A DNA stretch of 8,355 nucleotides from Gemmatimonadota bacterium (GTDB lineage: Bacteria; Gemmatimonadota; Gemmatimonadetes; Gemmatimonadales; GWC2-71-9), in the NCBI GenBank assembly GCA_029862935.1, contig JAOTWK010000140.1, forward strand, positions 1 to 8,355, written 5' to 3'. Below, piece by piece: positions 1,393 to 8,355 of this stretch. Under the pieces are notes generated by a model that saw only the letters and a program-made list of their open reading frames with translations, did not search any database and had not been told where the DNA came from. Each line of letters opens with the position of its first letter. The stretch's first letter is position 1. A program made the translations under genes and the position numbers.

Positions 1393-2952
1393 ATGAAGCG
1401 TTTCCTCGCCGGCCTGTTTGTTCTCTCGATCCTCCCTCCGGCGGTCCAATCCGGCCCCGGAGAGATCCGATTCGTCGAAACCAACGTTGATCTACAGGCA
1501 GACGGGTCGGCGGTGGTGCAGTACGTGGTGCGGTGGGGGGTACTGCGCGGCGAGCTGCACGGGTTCTACTTCGAAGGCGTCGATCGTTTGCGCGTCGAGA
1601 TGCTCCCGGATGCCGCGTACGCCCTGGATAGTCAAGGACAGCGCTACGGTCTGTCGATCAGCGAGGTGTCGCCCGGCCGATGGGACATCATCCTGGCTGA
1701 CGGTGCCGGCGTGCGCTCCGGCACGGTGACGTATTTCTTCGCCTTCGCCACGGACTTCGCCGCTGCCGGGTACGTCGGGCCGACGGCCGATGACGGCCGC
1801 CAGCTGACCTACTTCAACTGGTCTCCTGTTGAATGGGATGAGGCACGCAACCAGGATCACTACACGTTACGGGTGTTGCTGCCGCACCGCTTGGCACCGG
1901 GAATCGACGCGCGACAGTACGTCGATGCGGAGCAAGTGGTACTCACCGAGCGGTGGGTGAACGACAAGTTCCGCATCGACTACCAGCGAGGTGAAGCTGA
2001 TCGTCTGCGGCTGGTCTTTCACAAGGACGATCCCGGCAATCAGTTCGACATGCGGACGCAGTTCTACGTCCCGGCGCAGTGGTTCACGGTTGCCGGTGCG
2101 CCCGCCGTGGACGCACCACGTCCGCAATTCGGGCGCTGGAAGAAGGAAGACTGGTACATCGGCGGAGGCGTGCTTTTGCTGCTCGGGGCGTTCTTCCTCG
2201 TGGTGACCGGGAAGCATCGCTCGATGATCACCGCGCACCGCGGTTTGGATAAGGTACGCTGGGACACATTGGACTGGACGCCCCCCAAGCTGGTGTTGTC
2301 GAGCTTCCGCAAACCGGGCAAGGTCTGTGAGACCCTGACGCCGCTCGAAGCGGCGTTCTACCTCGAGATTCCGTTCAAGCGCATCCTCAGTGCCATGCTC
2401 GATTCCATGGTGGCAGAGGGGTTCCTGCGGGTCACCTCGCGAACACCGCTGCGGGTCCGCGTCCTGCAACCGCCCGACAAGACGAAACTGGATCAATACG
2501 AGAGGATGCTGTTCGAGTCGTTCGAGGACGATGGTCGCCTTTCGCAAAACGAGCTCGAAGCTTTCATGAACGGTGCGGTCGAGAACATCCGCCAGAAAGC
2601 GTGGGACTCTGACGTGGAAGCGACGAAAGCGTACTACCAGAACCTGGTGGTCGACCGCCCCGCAGCCGATCGGCGTGGCACAGACGCAGACTGGTACTGG
2701 TGGTATCACAACCAGCATCCGTACTACACCCGCCGGTACAACCACGACCGCAACCCGTTTCGTCACGAGGCAGACGTCCCCGTGCAGGTTGATCATCTGG
2801 TCAGCGGTCCCATCAACACCGACTTGGCGCTCGATCTCAACGTGTGCCACGATGCCTGCCACTCGGCGTGCCACTCGGCGTGCCACTCCGCGTGCCACTC
2901 TGCCTGTCACTCAGCCTGTCACTCGGCGTGTGTCAGCGGGAGCTCGCACTGA
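1393..2952 (+). CDS. DUF2207-like membrane protein with C-terminal Cys-His-Ser-Ala repeat (probable radical SAM substrate)
   Basis: 519 residues. The frame is open from 1285, but ATG 1393 is chosen because a signal peptide starts there (MKRF, hydrophobic core, likely cleavage after AVQS, residue 20). Residues 22-230 resemble the extracytoplasmic beta domain of DUF2207: DGSAVVQYVVRW, GELHGFY, TVTYFFAF, LTYFNWSPVEW and a closing VLLP. One membrane helix follows (about 254-272). Residues 315-350 (LTPLEAAFYLEIPFKRILSAM to EGFLRVTS) look like the cytosolic winged-helix-like part of the same family. A Trp/Tyr/His-rich stretch (433-452) leads to the tail, where eight Cys at 485, 489, 493, 497, 501, 505, 509 and 513 are each followed by HDA or HSA, the last by VSGSSH. 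Only one other Cys (312) exists. The stop overlaps the next start by 1 nt (TGATG). That the tail is modified by the next gene's enzyme is inference. Confidence 0.82.
   Translation: MKRFLAGLFVLSILPPAVQSGPGEIRFVETNVDLQADGSAVVQYVVRWGVLRGELHGFYFEGVDRLRVEMLPDAAYALDSQGQRYGLSISEVSPGRWDIILADGAGVRSGTVTYFFAFATDFAAAGYVGPTADDGRQLTYFNWSPVEWDEARNQDHYTLRVLLPHRLAPGIDARQYVDAEQVVLTERWVNDKFRIDYQRGEADRLRLVFHKDDPGNQFDMRTQFYVPAQWFTVAGAPAVDAPRPQFGRWKKEDWYIGGGVLLLLGAFFLVVTGKHRSMITAHRGLDKVRWDTLDWTPPKLVLSSFRKPGKVCETLTPLEAAFYLEIPFKRILSAMLDSMVAEGFLRVTSRTPLRVRVLQPPDKTKLDQYERMLFESFEDDGRLSQNELEAFMNGAVENIRQKAWDSDVEATKAYYQNLVVDRPAADRRGTDADWYWWYHNQHPYYTRRYNHDRNPFRHEADVPVQVDHLVSGPINTDLALDLNVCHDACHSACHSACHSACHSACHSACHSACVSGSSH
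2845..2931 (+). repeat. 12-bp tandem coding repeat for CHSA units
   Basis: Seven complete 12-nt units (one CHDA, six CHSA) plus a terminal Cys codon end the DUF2207-like gene. The amino-acid period is perfect, but Ser codons include TCG, TCC, TCT and TCA, Ala codons GCG and GCC, and Cys codons TGC and TGT. His is always CAC. This means the peptide repeat is maintained by selection and is not just a recent DNA expansion. Confidence 0.9.
2938..2942 (+). promoter_or_regulatory. Shine-Dalgarno (GGGAG) for the radical SAM gene
   Basis: GGGAG lies within the last Gly-Ser codons of the upstream gene, 9 nt before ATG 2952. It supports that start over the in-frame ATG at 2844, which would read through the CHSA repeat in another frame and give a nonsensical leader. 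Confidence 0.6.
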
Positions 2953-4310
2953 TGGACGTTCCGTTCGTGGCCAGGGACCTGTCGTGGATCGATGAATTCA
3001 TCGAACGCGTCAGGCCGTACGTGTTCGTACGTGAGATCGACCAACTCATCATCAAGCGCCCCAACCAAGCGCAGAAGCTCAACGCCCAAGGTGTGACGAT
3101 CCTCAAGCGTCTCCTGGATGGCGCATCGGTACATGAACTGCTCAACGACATTGGGCGGGATCCGCGCATCGTGAGGGACGTGGAGCTCTTCATGTACGAA
3201 GTGAAGCGGTTCATGGAAGGGACCCTCGACGAGGCGACGCGGACGCACGCCGTTGACGTGCAACCCTTCGACTTGGGCTTCTCACAACTCCCGGTTCTGT
3301 CGGAGATCGCACTGACCTACCGGTGCAACCTCAAGTGCTCGTTCTGCTACGCCGGGTGCAACTGCACGACGAATCCGGTCGGCGACGACAGAGAGATGAC
3401 AACGGCCGAAGTGCAGTCCGTCCTGCAGAAGATCTCTGAGGAAGGCCAGGTGCCGTCGGTCAGCTTCACCGGTGGTGAGGCGACGGTCCGGCGCGATCTG
3501 TGTGAACTGGTACAGTCTGCGCATGCGCTGGGTCTCAGAGTCAACCTGATCACCAACGGCACCCTGATTACCGAGGCACGGGCCACCGCACTGGCGGCCG
3601 CAGGTCTCGACTCGGCCCAGGTGAGTCTCGAAGGGGTAAGCGCGACAACGCACGAGAAGATCACGCAGATCCCACACTCGTTCATGCGCGCGGTCGCTGG
3701 TGTGCGGCACCTCAAAGCCGCCGGCATCCACGTGCACACGAACACCACCATCAATCGCGACAATCTGCACGAGTGTGTGCGGATGCCGGAGTTCGTGAAG
3801 CGGGAGCTCGGCAACACCAAGTTCAGCATGAATCTCGTCATTCCAACGGGGAGCGCGGCGCTCGACGAACGGTTGGTCGTACGCTATCGGGAGTTGGCGC
3901 CGTATCTGATGGCGATTCAGGCCGAAAGCCGACGCCACGGTGTCGAGTTTATGTGGTACTCACCGACGCCGATGTGCATGTTCAACCCTGTGGCTCGCGG
4001 ACTGGGGAACAAGGGGTGTGCGGCCTGCGATGGACTCCTTTCGGTAGCCGCCAACGGTGACGTCCTTCCGTGCGCGTCGTACGATGAAACCGTTGGGAAC
4101 TTGCTCGAGCAGAGCGTGCAGGACGTGTGGGAGTCACCGCGGGCGAAGCTATTCCGCGACAAGTTCCTGGCCCATCCGGAATGTCGCAGCTGCCAAGACT
4201 TTGCGATCTGCAATGGCGCCTGCCCCCTCTACTGGCGGCAGATGGGGTTCGACGAGTTGACCGGGTGTCGTGGCTTCGCACCCCTCGAGCCGGGACATTT
4301 CACCCAATGA
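2952..4310 (+). CDS. PqqD-like/radical SAM/SPASM peptide-modifying enzyme
   Basis: 452 residues. Radical SAM enzymes cleave S-adenosylmethionine at a [4Fe-4S] cluster to make a 5'-deoxyadenosyl radical; SPASM members commonly modify ribosomal peptides. Residues about 20-90 resemble PqqD (NAQGVTILKRLLDGASVHELL), the usual leader-recognition domain. The cluster motif is CNLKCSFC, Cys125, Cys129 and Cys132, followed by two further cysteines, 136 and 138. The SAM-binding GGE is at 174-176, and LITNGTL and AQVSLEG strands follow as expected. The C-terminal SPASM region has Cys356, 359, 374, 411, 414, 420, 424 and 439 (CAAC, LPC, CRSC, CNGAC), enough for two auxiliary clusters. Start is set by the overlap with the upstream stop and GGGAG. 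The adjacent Cys-rich repeat protein is the obvious substrate. Thioether (sactipeptide- or ranthipeptide-type) bond formation is plausible, but the reaction is not deducible from sequence. Confidence 0.93.
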   Translation: MDVPFVARDLSWIDEFIERVRPYVFVREIDQLIIKRPNQAQKLNAQGVTILKRLLDGASVHELLNDIGRDPRIVRDVELFMYEVKRFMEGTLDEATRTHAVDVQPFDLGFSQLPVLSEIALTYRCNLKCSFCYAGCNCTTNPVGDDREMTTAEVQSVLQKISEEGQVPSVSFTGGEATVRRDLCELVQSAHALGLRVNLITNGTLITEARATALAAAGLDSAQVSLEGVSATTHEKITQIPHSFMRAVAGVRHLKAAGIHVHTNTTINRDNLHECVRMPEFVKRELGNTKFSMNLVIPTGSAALDERLVVRYRELAPYLMAIQAESRRHGVEFMWYSPTPMCMFNPVARGLGNKGCAACDGLLSVAANGDVLPCASYDETVGNLLEQSVQDVWESPRAKLFRDKFLAHPECRSCQDFAICNGACPLYWRQMGFDELTGCRGFAPLEPGHFTQ

Positions 4311-5257
4311 TCCTTCCAACCAGAGCCGACCGCGGCATCGTCGTCTTTGTGCTCTTCCCGTCGTTCGCGTACGAGCGACGTCTCGTGGTGAGCTTTGGTC
4401 TCGTCGTCGTGGGGTTCGTTGTGCAGTTCATCACCACGGCGATCTTTCCCGGACTCCTGCTCCTGGTCGTCGGAAACGCGCTGCTGTTGGTCAAGGGCTA
4501 CGACAATCGGATTGATTGGGCAGGATTCGACCCTGACGCACGCTGGGAGCGCGTCGACATCGAGAAACTCGATCAGCTTCGCGAGCTGGACAAGAAGATC
4601 AAGAAGTGGGACCTGAGTGCCCTCGACATTTCGAATCCCCTGGGAGTGGTCGCCTTCCTGTTCGTGGCAGGAGGGTTGGGCGTGCTGCTAGTGACGAGTC
4701 GCGGAAACCTTCGAATCGTCGCGCTGGATGCGCTCGTCTTGCTCGTGCCACACTGGCTCACTGGAATTCGCTCGATTCTCCGAACGCCGCAGCTGTTGGT
4801 GCGGATTGACGCCATCAAGAAGGTCCTCGACCGGTCGGCGACTCGTCTCAGGGACCATCGCGTGATACCGCTCATGCTGCTGTTGGGCGACGAGGCGAAG
4901 CTCCCCGAAAACATCAAGTTCAAAGTTGACATCGGTGGGGCGCATCCGGATTTCTTGGGCCTCTACGGACAGGTCGTGATCAACGACGTGCAAGGCAAGT
5001 CGTATCCGTACTTCTACGTTGTGCTCGTGGCTCGGAAGGACTTCGGCTTGCGCGAGGCCCACCGGCGTTTTCGACCGAGCGACGACCTCACCAAGGAGTT
5101 CAAGGTGGAGGAGGAGGTGGAGGTGATGGTGATCCGGCAGCACACCACGAAGACCAGCGGGTATCACACCAAACCGGAAGTTGCGGCCGGCATCTTCTAC
5201 GCTGGGCTCAACATGGCGGAGCAGGTGGCAGGGGGAGTGGTGAGCGGTAAGCCGTAA
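4307..5257 (+). CDS. Four-helix membrane protein of unknown family, 316 aa
   Basis: I do not recognise the family. ATG 4307 overlaps the radical SAM stop as ATGA (4 bp), the standard coupled arrangement, and no strong Shine-Dalgarno is seen. The frame is open further upstream, but that part is only a shadow of the radical SAM gene. Hydrophobic segments are at about 26-43, 46-64, 111-130 and 134-153. Between the pairs lies a charged helix with an ELDKKIKKWDLSALD region (93-107). A soluble C-terminal domain of about 160 residues follows, with strands around FKVDIGG, QVVINDV and YPYFYVVLVARKD, then an acidic run (KVEEEVEVMV) and HTTKTSGYHTK near residue 280. There is no Cys-rich region, no P-loop and no HExxH protease motif. 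Context suggests a partner of the repeat protein: maturation, assembly or redox partner. That is inference only. Confidence 0.8.
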   Translation: MILPTRADRGIVVFVLFPSFAYERRLVVSFGLVVVGFVVQFITTAIFPGLLLLVVGNALLLVKGYDNRIDWAGFDPDARWERVDIEKLDQLRELDKKIKKWDLSALDISNPLGVVAFLFVAGGLGVLLVTSRGNLRIVALDALVLLVPHWLTGIRSILRTPQLLVRIDAIKKVLDRSATRLRDHRVIPLMLLLGDEAKLPENIKFKVDIGGAHPDFLGLYGQVVINDVQGKSYPYFYVVLVARKDFGLREAHRRFRPSDDLTKEFKVEEEVEVMVIRQHTTKTSGYHTKPEVAAGIFYAGLNMAEQVAGGVVSGKP

Positions 5258-5265
5258 GCTGCGAG

Positions 5266-5370
5266 TTCTCAGTTCTCAGTTTTCAGTTTTCGGTTGTTAG
5301 GTTTCAGCCGTCAGCCGTCAGCGATCAGCCTTCAGCCAACAGCTTTCAGCTATCAGCCGTGAAGCGTCAG
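5266..5370 (+). repeat. Heptamer tandem repeat, 15 units of NNNTCAG
   Basis: Fifteen consecutive 7-nt units fill the gap between the operon and the next gene. Eleven end exactly in TCAG; the other four end in TCGG, TTAG, ACAG and TGAA. The three variable bases are T-rich in the first five units (TTC, TTC, TTT, TTT, TTG) and mostly C-rich later (CCG, CCG, CGA, CCT, CCA). No unit contains a clear promoter, no intrinsic terminator is seen, and no ORF spans it. Heptameric tandem repeats are known from cyanobacterial intergenic DNA; whether this is related is unknown. Confidence 0.85.
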
Positions 5371-6068: not shown

Positions 6069-8355
6069 CTACGCGATCACGTTCCGATCCTTCAGGTGCT
6101 CCAAGATCGGGTGCAGGATGAGTCTCCGCAGGCGATAGCGCCGGCCGGGCGTGACGGGCTGGCGAGCACTCGTGTTGATGGGCTGGTTGTCCGATGGTAC
6201 GGGCTCGATCAGCCTGAGCGTGAGAAGCGATTCCAGTAACACCGTGCTCTGCTCGGTCGTCATCCGGAAGATCGTGGCGTGTTCCTCCGGCGTCAGCGAA
6301 TTGTGGACGACGAACGCCTTCAGCGTGAACGTCCGCTGTAAATCGAAGTCCCTGAGAAAGCGGAAGCTCAGCGGCTTGACCGGTGCGATCGTGAGCGTGT
6401 CAACGTTCGCCGTGAAATCGACCGACCGCAGCCAGTAGAAGAGCGCCAACATGACGTCTTCCCCGCTGTGCCGGTGGAGGCTGTCGAAGTACCACTCCCG
6501 AAGAATCGCCTGCTTCTTCGAAGGGGACCGAGCGCGTCGGAGCTTGTGCCGCATCATGGGCGTGAGGCCAGACGGGGGTGCAAACGTCATCGGCAGGCCG
6601 GTGCGTCCATGGCGGTTGCCGACGATGTCCTGAAGAGTGTCGCGTCCCAGGCGATCCAAGGGATGCACGGTCACGAGTTGCACAGATGCCGGTGCCGTCT
6701 TGGTGAGGTAATGCCATGCCTGACGGCCGATCGTCGTGATCCAGTAGATCGTCGAGTCCGTGCGCGAAAAGAAGATGAGAAGGCGTTGCAGGAGCTCTGT
6801 ACCCCGATGGCCTTGGAGCATCAGGAGCTCCAAATTGTCGATCGCGCACACGGTCGGTGAGTCCGACCGATCGGCTTGGACGAGGTACGTCTCCAAGGAC
6901 TCGATTGAGTTCCGCGGCTCGCCTTCAATCCCGAGCGTATCTGCCAACAGCGCTGCGAGAGTGGCCTCCTCGGTGATGCGGTCGTCGAGTACGACCTTGG
7001 TCAGGCGGCAGTCGTCGAACACCTTGCGCTCGAGCACGTTCGAGAAACTGGTCCGTCCGCTTCCCAGCGGAGCCGTCAGGATCATGACGCCCGGGCCGTC
7101 ATCCTCACGCCACGCCTTATGGTGATTGCGGACGAACACGAGGTCGCGCGCGCGCCCCTCGAGCAACGACGGGTCGGTCACTGGCGCAAAAGAAAAGAGC
7201 TTGCGATAGACGAGCGGACGGTTCTGCAGAAGCTCGTCAACGCCGACAATGGCATCGAGCGCGTGGAACACGTCGGCGTCCTCGACGGCAGCAACTCCGA
7301 CGGCAGTCTGTCCGCGGCGGACGAGCCCTAACAGCAGCCGTTGTCCCCGACTGGCCAGTGCCACGAGACGGGCTGCGGCTCGGCTGGCCCAGGTGCCGGC
7401 ACGCCGCCGCCCGCGCTCCAAGTCGCGTGCGACACGGGTCTGGACGCGCACCCAGAGCCCCTGAATTGACTGCTCGGCACGAATGCGCCGCAGGAGGTCT
7501 TCCCAGTCCTCACGGATGGCGCCGAACGCGCCGGTGGCGAGATCGCCCCACGGCTCGGCGAGGGATGTCGTGAGCTCGTCGAGCGTGTCAGCGGACCTGC
7601 GGACGCCGTCAGGCGCCAGCTCGAGGGCGGTGGCAACGGCCGTGCGGGCCTTGTCGCTGTCGGGTTTCGATGCGCCCACGGTCTCGAGCTCGTCCGCGGC
7701 GGAAGTCAGGTTGTACTCGATGATCTCGCGGACTCGCTCCGCCTCACTCCACACTTGACCGATACGGACCTGCAAAGGCTCCGCTCGCTTCTGGAGCTGC
7801 TCCGGCCATGGCGGGGCAAGTGCCTCTTCCGCGATCTCTCTCAGGTCAATTGCAAAGACATCGGCGCGAGGGTCGACCGCTTTTTCTGGGCCGGCTTTCC
7901 AAAGGTGCACGGAAACGCGGTCGGGCAACCCGGCCATGAGCTCGACGAGTTCGTCCCACTCGGCCTGGCCGGGGGCATTCAACACGTCGCGTGGCACGAC
8001 GGCCCCGGGGAGCTTCTTCAAGGCCTCGTCTACCTTCTTGATTGCCTTACCCTGAATATCCCTGAGTCGAGCTGCCGTGTCCGCGAGGCGATCAGGTGAG
8101 GCATCACGACAGACCTGCTCGGTGTCGTCGCCCATCCGACGGAGGTGCCGTGCGAGGGAGTCGAAAGAATCGGTAACCGGTTTGATCGTCGCACTTCCGA
8201 TTCGATCGAGTGCCTTCTCCTCGAGACCCAGCAGGCGCTCTCTGAGTTCAATGAGTTGCAGCGTGAGTGCGAACCGATCTTGCAGCTCCCTGTGCCATAT
8301 CGCCCACTCGGCGGCCCGAGCGCGGAGCTTCGCTGCTGGCGAGCGGTGGGATGGG
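6069..8355 (-). CDS. Large P-loop (AAA/STAND-like) ATPase with C-terminal winged helix, 5' end outside window
   Basis: The stop is TAG at 6071-6069. An ATG at 8135 would give 688 aa, but the frame continues without a stop for 73 more codons to the right edge and encodes plausible helical protein (RFALTLQLIELRERLLGLEE), so the true start is probably outside; 761 residues are visible. Counting from Met8135, residues 1-285 are mostly charged helices, probably coiled coil. Walker A is APLGSGRTS (355-363), with Ala for the first Gly and Arg361 for the usual Lys. Walker B is TVCAIDN, Asp433, with Asn where AAA+ proteins have Glu. A sensor-like IYWITTIGRQAWHYL follows (463-477), then VGNRHGRTG (505-513). 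A winged helix spans about 606-646 (SLTPEEHATIF, LLESLLTLRLIEPV). No membrane helix is evident. A regulatory or scaffold ATPase is more likely than a motor; partners are unknown. Confidence 0.82.
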   Translation of the reverse strand, partial: PSHRSPAAKLRARAAEWAIWHRELQDRFALTLQLIELRERLLGLEEKALDRIGSATIKPVTDSFDSLARHLRRMGDDTEQVCRDASPDRLADTAARLRDIQGKAIKKVDEALKKLPGAVVPRDVLNAPGQAEWDELVELMAGLPDRVSVHLWKAGPEKAVDPRADVFAIDLREIAEEALAPPWPEQLQKRAEPLQVRIGQVWSEAERVREIIEYNLTSAADELETVGASKPDSDKARTAVATALELAPDGVRRSADTLDELTTSLAEPWGDLATGAFGAIREDWEDLLRRIRAEQSIQGLWVRVQTRVARDLERGRRRAGTWASRAAARLVALASRGQRLLLGLVRRGQTAVGVAAVEDADVFHALDAIVGVDELLQNRPLVYRKLFSFAPVTDPSLLEGRARDLVFVRNHHKAWREDDGPGVMILTAPLGSGRTSFSNVLERKVFDDCRLTKVVLDDRITEEATLAALLADTLGIEGEPRNSIESLETYLVQADRSDSPTVCAIDNLELLMLQGHRGTELLQRLLIFFSRTDSTIYWITTIGRQAWHYLTKTAPASVQLVTVHPLDRLGRDTLQDIVGNRHGRTGLPMTFAPPSGLTPMMRHKLRRARSPSKKQAILREWYFDSLHRHSGEDVMLALFYWLRSVDFTANVDTLTIAPVKPLSFRFLRDFDLQRTFTLKAFVVHNSLTPEEHATIFRMTTEQSTVLLESLLTLRLIEPVPSDNQPINTSARQPVTPGRRYRLRRLILHPILEHLKDRNVIA

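Follow-up and report, generated by a model that had tools for sequence, protein, structure and literature searches.

The window analysed here, an 8,355-nucleotide stretch from a Gemmatimonadota bacterium (contig JAOTWK010000140.1 of assembly GCA_029862935.1), contains three overlapping genes, referred to as A, B and C. They encode a membrane protein ending in a cysteine-rich repeat, a PqqD-like/radical S-adenosylmethionine (SAM)/SPASM enzyme, and a second membrane protein (Table 1). Comparison with related loci shows that the tail of A is strongly conserved and that A and B occur together, and B probably modifies the tail of A.

The three genes of the locus

Table 1. Positions in the window of genes A, B and C and of the features within them.
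Feature	Position	Strand	Details
Gene A	1393..2952	+	519 residues; ATG at 1393, TGA at 2950-2952
N-terminal beta domain of A, approximately residues 22-230	1456..2082	+	from predicted model; weak DUF2207 match
Hydrophobic segment of A, residues 255-273	2155..2211	+	sole segment above threshold (Kyte-Doolittle scan)
Winged-helix-like part of A	2290..2466	+	helix-helix-strand-strand order in model
C-terminal tail of A	2845..2949	+	8 Cys, spacing 4, CHDA(CHSA)6-CVSGSSH; predicted substrate of B
Gene B	2952..4310	+	452 residues; ATG at 2952, TGA at 4308-4310
PqqD/RRE-like N-terminal domain of B	3024..3266	+	bounds approximate; 15.3 bits
Radical SAM core of B, with CNLKCSFC	3312..3767	+	PF04055, 92.5 bits
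SPASM domain of B	4017..4196	+	PF13186, 46.0 bits
Gene C	4307..5257	+	316 residues; ATG at 4307, TAA at 5255-5257; membrane protein with alpha/beta domain

The A protein consists of a signal peptide (recognised by eye), an extracytoplasmic beta domain, one transmembrane helix, a winged-helix-like domain, further helices and the Cys/His tail, in that order. The first-pass annotation described A as DUF2207-like, and a match to DUF2207 (PF09972) does exist but stays below the curated cut-off (17.4 against 24.4 bits). The AlphaFold model of the beta domain has predicted local distance difference test (pLDDT) values mostly above 90; among the best 50 Foldseek rows (E 1.3e-8 to 5.2e-6, template-modelling score by query length 0.23-0.28) it matched human OST-A chains at a root-mean-square deviation (rmsd) above 20 and M1-type aminopeptidases at rmsd mostly of 5-8. 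The winged-helix-like domain is our reading of the predicted model, and residues 303-402, which include it, weakly match TIGR04222 (32.7 bits, cut-off 43, over 100 of 229 positions).

The last 35 residues of A read CHDACHSACHSACHSACHSACHSACHSACVSGSSH, with eight Cys at residues 485-513 spaced exactly four apart, as the first-pass annotation had reported, and with His directly after seven of the eight. Its description of a perfect CHSA repeat was slightly generous: six CHSA units are present, but they are flanked by one CHDA before and CVSG after. Tandem Repeats Finder describes the underlying DNA as 6.2 copies of a 12 bp unit with 88% matches, and the pLDDT of the tail is mostly below 50.

Gene B overlaps A by TGATG (2950-2954) and C by ATGA (4307-4310), both overlaps having been noted at first pass. 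The cluster motifs attributed to B were likewise confirmed, as its radical SAM and SPASM domains pass their Pfam cut-offs of 29.5 and 21.5 bits and the relevant cysteines are invariant across 33 relatives. These are Cys 125, 129 and 132 of the CX3CX2C motif and the SPASM-type Cys 342, 356, 374, 411, 414, 420 and 424, of which 356, 374, 411 and 414 lie inside the SPASM domain and 342, 420 and 424 just beyond it. The designation PqqD-like is less well supported for B of the window, which stays below the curated cut-off of 23.4 bits, although 18 of 33 members of the family match PqqD at E ≤0.1 (best 6.6e-11). No NCBIfam family among those listed (the best 25 for the enzymes) scored above its cut-off for A, B or the sister proteins described below; the best scores of B were to tetrapyrrole enzymes such as AhbD and NirJ2, far below cut-off (145 against 500 bits). 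Its solved relatives are headed by SkfB, the substrate of which is a small peptide, and PqqE. A plasmid search for B at E ≤1e-60 gave no match.

Gene C had been described as encoding an unknown four-helix membrane protein. It has no Pfam match, Foldseek returned nothing for it at E ≤0.001, and in its predicted model a beta-rich domain comes after two helix hairpins, but a hydropathy scan marks just two of the four model helices. Residues 161-314 were considered as a candidate for the type III secretion chaperone/YbjN fold.

Co-occurrence and conservation of the tail and the enzyme

Tails were searched for with a DNA pattern for (CHxA)3C, with no enzyme required, which gave at least 116 genome loci; all counts of tail loci below refer to the 116 matches listed. 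Four loci were dropped before counting because they held no frame of at least 40 residues with the repeat (L002, L037, L042, L054), although B was nevertheless present in L042 and L054, and thirteen proved to be different frames or to encode proteins lacking the A domain (L028, L029, L030, L032, L047, L071, L074, L089, L097, L098, L104, L105, L110). The scaffold was found in 92 of the rest by a profile of A built without the tail, and seven edge-cut loci were counted as A by the tail alone (L059, L062, L082, L084, L087, L093, L108). The CHxA tail is consequently placed at the C-terminus of A-type proteins in at least 99 genome loci. By record titles, the listed loci carry approximately 30 phylum-level names, including Thorarchaeota, Lokiarchaeota and Heimdallarchaeota; single assignments may be wrong, since most are metagenome-assembled genomes.

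B lies directly downstream of A on the same strand in 87 of these 99 loci. Three had no room downstream: in L065 B lies upstream instead, and a single B is present in the genome of L045 and in that of L083. The remaining nine had room and no B directly downstream, B being found within the locus on the opposite strand (L001, L053, L106), on the same contig as the tail (L020, L093) or elsewhere in the genome (L004, L061, L101, L102). L004 is a second copy of A and C, and the other A of that genome (L010) adjoins B. Exactly one B (E ≤1e-60) was found in each of ten genomes searched, including those of L004, L020, L061, L093, L101 and L102. Tailed proteins without the enzyme had been named at first pass as evidence that would speak against modification of the tail, and this check left the proposal standing. 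An overlap of A and B is possible in 31 of 62 measured pairs, mostly by 4 or 1 bases (taken from the nearest possible start, L065 excluded). C follows in 63 of the 99 loci; 17 had no room for it, and 17 of the other 19 belong, by our reading, to the second of the two tail branches described below. As a regular third member of the set, C is less well supported.

Twelve viral loci also contained the tail pattern, with short frames in eleven and none in L126, and none matched the A domain. Three of these contigs (L117:2895-3089, L118:6022-6303, L119:6495-6689) carry short CNSA/CHSA-repeat frames with the spacer SSKHNAYSA and have neither the A domain nor B. In Pseudomonas mucoides (L047:716-1228) a 171-residue frame ends in CHSACHGACHGACHGARGWR, and this locus, too, lacks both the A domain and B.

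The reverse search started from the enzyme and covered six phylum samples of 150, 198, 198, 149, 251 and 249 genomes (1,195 in total), named from their seed loci; the seed for Acidobacteriota was a genome of Aminicenantes. B was matched in Gemmatimonadota (2), Elusimicrobiota (8), Spirochaetota (10), Acidobacteriota (8), Chloroflexota (3) and Bacillota (3), and 33 of these 34 genes adjoin a CHxA-tailed A. In the sole exception (L137, genome G004) the tail is on another contig (L102). Without the six seed genomes and G004, B stands beside a tail in 27 of 27 cases. A and B were found in the same 8 of 198 Elusimicrobiota genomes (p 2e-14); of 150 Gemmatimonadota genomes, the 2 with B are also the 2 with C. 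These data show that the A-B system is rare and patchy, yet A and B occur together; enzyme homologues without a tailed neighbour, the other check suggested at first pass, did not overturn the proposal.

The tail is the best-kept part of A. Across 67 loci, the 27-residue stretch round its end has a median identity of 0.93 and a mean of 0.78, whereas the mean is 0.27 over the remainder of A and 0.43 over B. Over the same loci, A and B distances correlate (r 0.82), a value that none of 2000 permutations reached. Ser is encoded in the tails by codons of both classes (475 TCN, 186 AGY), which indicates that the protein and not a DNA repeat is being kept. The x position, the ending and the length were left unconstrained by the search pattern; among 592 branch-I units, 469 are CHSA and 72 CHDA. 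A chance or DNA-slippage repeat was ruled out by the recurring register, Cys number and C-terminal end and by the varied codons.

Including that of the window, the tails fall into two branches of 78 (branch I) and 22 (branch II). Branch I tails mostly have 8 to 10 Cys in plain register (76 of 78), with Cys then His in nearly every unit, and C is usually present. Branch II tails are interrupted by VHDAC or VCHSAC and have ends such as CVSSF. In place of C, branch II often has a protein of approximately 400 residues, found in 14 loci, and a small membrane protein, found in 10; one of the small proteins has a zinc ribbon match slightly below the cut-off.

The partners that recur include C in branch I, the branch II pair and lineage-specific genes. 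A small protein (frame of 130-168 residues, motif LPYG.I) is repeatedly encoded upstream of A, in loci of WOR-3, Aminicenantes and Asgard archaea (L056, L061, L025, L001, L053, L106); the two that were scanned had no Pfam match over cut-off. Among the neighbour families of the tail loci, most of them unnamed, neither a peptidase nor an exporter was found repeatedly in the same position. This bears on the idea that the tail is a precursor which B modifies and a protease then excises, to give a small peptide-derived cofactor or a secreted peptide. PQQ and mycofactocin are peptide-derived cofactors excised from a modified precursor, PqqD-fused SPASM enzymes often serve such systems, and the tail of A does stand at the extreme C-terminus. 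An ABC-type ATPase family was also found in five loci (L008, L017, L024, L027, L078), but at scattered places, on either strand and, L078 excepted, 3.4-6.3 kb away. No peptidase was recognised among the recurring partners, and the entire scaffold is kept together with the tail, so that excision appears very improbable. With no peptidase or exporter at a fixed place, A resembles a resident membrane protein that undergoes modification rather than a secreted ribosomally synthesized and post-translationally modified peptide (RiPP).

Sister enzymes with other tails, and further genes of the window

In Acidobacteriota, matches to B fell into score bands, with 8 at 540-640 bits, 19 at 275-326 bits and the listed rest at 176 bits or below. 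The middle band is a sister clade of B that stands beside distant relatives of A with different tails. These end in CACACACAGCACACAGGGR at the C-terminus in Acidobacteriota and Chloroflexota and in SCACACACACASSGGCT in Bacillota, and a further tail, CVSCACACVSCACACACAGGGGAGC, occurs with reversed gene order. A Cys tail adjoins 42 of 43 middle-band enzymes over three phyla (18 of 19, 15 of 15 and 9 of 9), 40 of the 42 by one strict rule and two (L212, L223) with the shorter CACACAGCACACAGGGR; at L204 no tail lies within approximately 1.5 kb of the sister enzyme. The loci with CACA-type tails are L186-L203, L205, L207, L211-L224, L226 and L230-L238. Some Chloroflexota loci (e.g., L211, L213 and L224) also have a second, more distant radical SAM gene, which in L211 has a PqqD domain over cut-off. 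Of the lower-scoring radical SAM loci examined, 20 of 22 had no tail (L206, L225, L239-L256); the two with a tail were L205, where the enzyme is cut by the contig end, and L207, where the match covers positions 32-293 only.

Profile comparison related A to the scaffolds of the sister systems, with E 3e-29 over 297 columns for the CACA scaffold, 1e-21 for the Bacillota scaffold and 1e-7, in the N-terminal part only, for the third type; trimming of the tails did not succeed in the third type or in some of the TIGR04222 set, and the matched columns precede the tails. In a tree of 63 enzymes chosen by us, the six labels (none plus five classes of tail) require 6 changes where the minimum is 5, compared to a mean of 36.7 after shuffling, with none of 200 shuffles as low. 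Tail type follows enzyme clade nearly one to one. In set A3 of the sister proteins, 25 of 32 members match TIGR04117 at E ≤1 (best 0.0089; in the one member displayed, the match covers the tail), and TIGR04222 is matched at E ≤1 by 9 of 32 A3 and 7 of 15 A4 members.

The sister tails also bear on a possible role in metal binding. A His after almost every Cys had been remarked on at first pass as suggesting a metal-binding product; this is true of the window but does not hold as a general trait, because the sister CACA tails have no His. A heme-type motif, CxxxCH, was also considered for the tail. Copper-storage proteins use CxxxC helices as arrays of metal ligands, and the tail could similarly be an unmodified Cys/His array, with B making or inserting something else in the same pathway, for example a small cofactor that the tail would carry. 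The pairing of Cys and His in branch I and the tetrapyrrole enzymes at the head of the NCBIfam scores of B point in this direction. However, sister enzymes pair with His-free tails, the PqqD/RRE-like domain points to a peptide substrate, and the best solved relative is a peptide maturase, SkfB, which makes an unmodified array quite unlikely.

Elsewhere in the window, short degenerate direct repeats with 7-bp units lie between C and the next gene (5264-5360). On the minus strand are a large protein (6069-8354) with weak AAA_22 and pepcterm_ATPase matches below cut-off and a DNA polymerase IV-like gene (2-631, IMS domain) cut by the window edge. A short lipoprotein-like frame occupies 678-1226.

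Proposed modification of the tail and comparison with known systems

The conserved tail, the linkage found in both directions, the shared presence and absence, the correlated divergence, the enzyme motifs and the sister pairs are observed here, and they argue that B probably modifies the tail of A; the action on the tail, the bond type, the topology and the purpose we infer. A, B and C would form a dedicated module in which the last 35 residues of the membrane protein A, a conserved array with Cys at every fourth position, probably face the cytosol. B would bind A through its PqqD/RRE-like domain (RRE, RiPP recognition element), and its radical SAM and SPASM clusters would modify the Cys units of the tail repeatedly. 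As a first guess, each unit may acquire one Cys thioether, with a loss of 2 Da each, perhaps to Ala, which stands just before almost all Cys of the CHSA and CACA tails alike. The modified tail would stay on A as a membrane-anchored and probably metal- or redox-active appendage, and C may be a membrane partner specific to branch I.

Several points weigh against this reading. Co-variation of tail and enzyme amounts to matching and not to proof of contact, because the tail, the scaffold and the enzyme share an operon and are passed on jointly. The query of the enzyme-first search (A1) was itself built from tail loci, and some genomes of that search recur from the tail-first set, L150 and L058, for instance, having identical enzymes. 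That C, H and A are conserved in three units of the tail is partly by construction, since the search pattern demanded them. A and B are unlinked at four loci, and the B of L061 is a partial match only (positions 161-436).

The cytosolic topology rests on hydropathy and on the signal peptide seen by eye in the window, and 27 of 59 A proteins have two or more hydrophobic segments after residue 60. The tail might instead be exported to the periplasm and trap metal there, whether or not B modifies it, and a periplasmic location is what an excerpt of PMC12452194 proposes for TIGR04222 tails. Such additional segments in relatives of A would allow this, but A of the window has one segment above threshold. 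In the 7 of the 27 in which the conserved W..PP motif could be placed, the marginal second segment begins 23-26 residues after it, within the winged-helix-like part, and falls in what is predicted to be a small globular domain. A periplasmic tail is unlikely on these grounds.

A large, membrane-anchored relative of Cys-rich RiPPs had been proposed at first pass. A small secreted Cys-rich RiPP fits poorly, because the carrier is a 519-residue membrane protein and no peptidase or exporter stands at a fixed place; with its transmembrane helix, A also differs from the small precursors of ranthipeptides and sactipeptides. There is perhaps an even chance that the loci represent a class of modified membrane proteins of bacteria and Asgard archaea, in which a related scaffold carries one of several fixed Cys tails, each served by its own clade of PqqD-fused radical SAM/SPASM enzyme, and in which the product is a multiply crosslinked, membrane-tethered cytosolic tail acting as a metal or redox device, a genetically encoded, polymer-like cofactor that remains attached to its protein. 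If so, radical SAM peptide chemistry would extend from small peptides to resident membrane proteins within one clade found in bacteria and Asgard archaea. The near one-to-one match of tails and enzymes provides ready-made pairs for finding what each enzyme writes, and the system offers a handle on the role of DUF2207/TIGR04222-type membrane proteins. A DUF2207 protein of Streptococcus mutans reportedly affects stress tolerance and biofilm, judging by the title of the study. Among the matches listed in the open-licence literature, no account of a DUF2207 or A-type membrane protein with a radical SAM partner was found.

Four-residue registers are known to be modified repeatedly by radical SAM enzymes. 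An excerpt of PMC9413430 describes PapB, a ranthipeptide maturase acting on Cys-X3-Asp motifs with several Cys at a four-residue register; its substrate is a peptide and its acceptor Asp/Glu. In the present tail the fourth residue after a Cys is another Cys, and the partner is a 519-residue membrane protein. TvgB, according to an excerpt of PMC9062424, acts on the four-residue TVGG repeat of a peptide precursor with a loss of 2 Da, but its repeat has no Cys and Val is converted to cyclopropylglycine. TIGR04117, named "Cys-Xaa-Xaa-Xaa repeat radical SAM target protein", resembles the present system in its Cys-every-four repeat and, by name, in its radical SAM partner, but A scores 11.2 bits against a cut-off of 50, and B scores 78.5 against 400 for TIGR04340, the ACGX-system radical SAM family. 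SkfB, the sporulation killing factor maturase (PDB 6efn), is the best solved relative of B by profile at 118 bits, but the match spans just 112-317 of 456 positions.

The closest published system is that of TIGR04222 membrane proteins paired with MNIO enzymes (DUF692, PF05114), for which the excerpt of PMC12452194 describes a Cys-rich C-terminal tail beside an enzyme modifying Cys peptides, as in A and B, and presents a periplasmic topology as proposed and the function as unknown. The two differ in that B is a radical SAM/SPASM enzyme and not an MNIO, the tails here are CHSA or CACA and not CGG, and A falls below the TIGR04222 cut-off. By profile comparison, A and TIGR04222 match with 73% probability over 67 columns before the tails, in the winged-helix-like part. 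In a separate Planctomycetota sample, TIGR04222 was present in 9 of 149 genomes at ten places; in the frames printed, CG-rich tails were seen at five of these (L169, L171-L174), and PF05114 stood beside TIGR04222 at L173 and L174, some neighbours of six places having been scanned with Pfam. By analogy, this parallel suggests that one kind of membrane protein may be served by two unrelated Cys-modifying chemistries.

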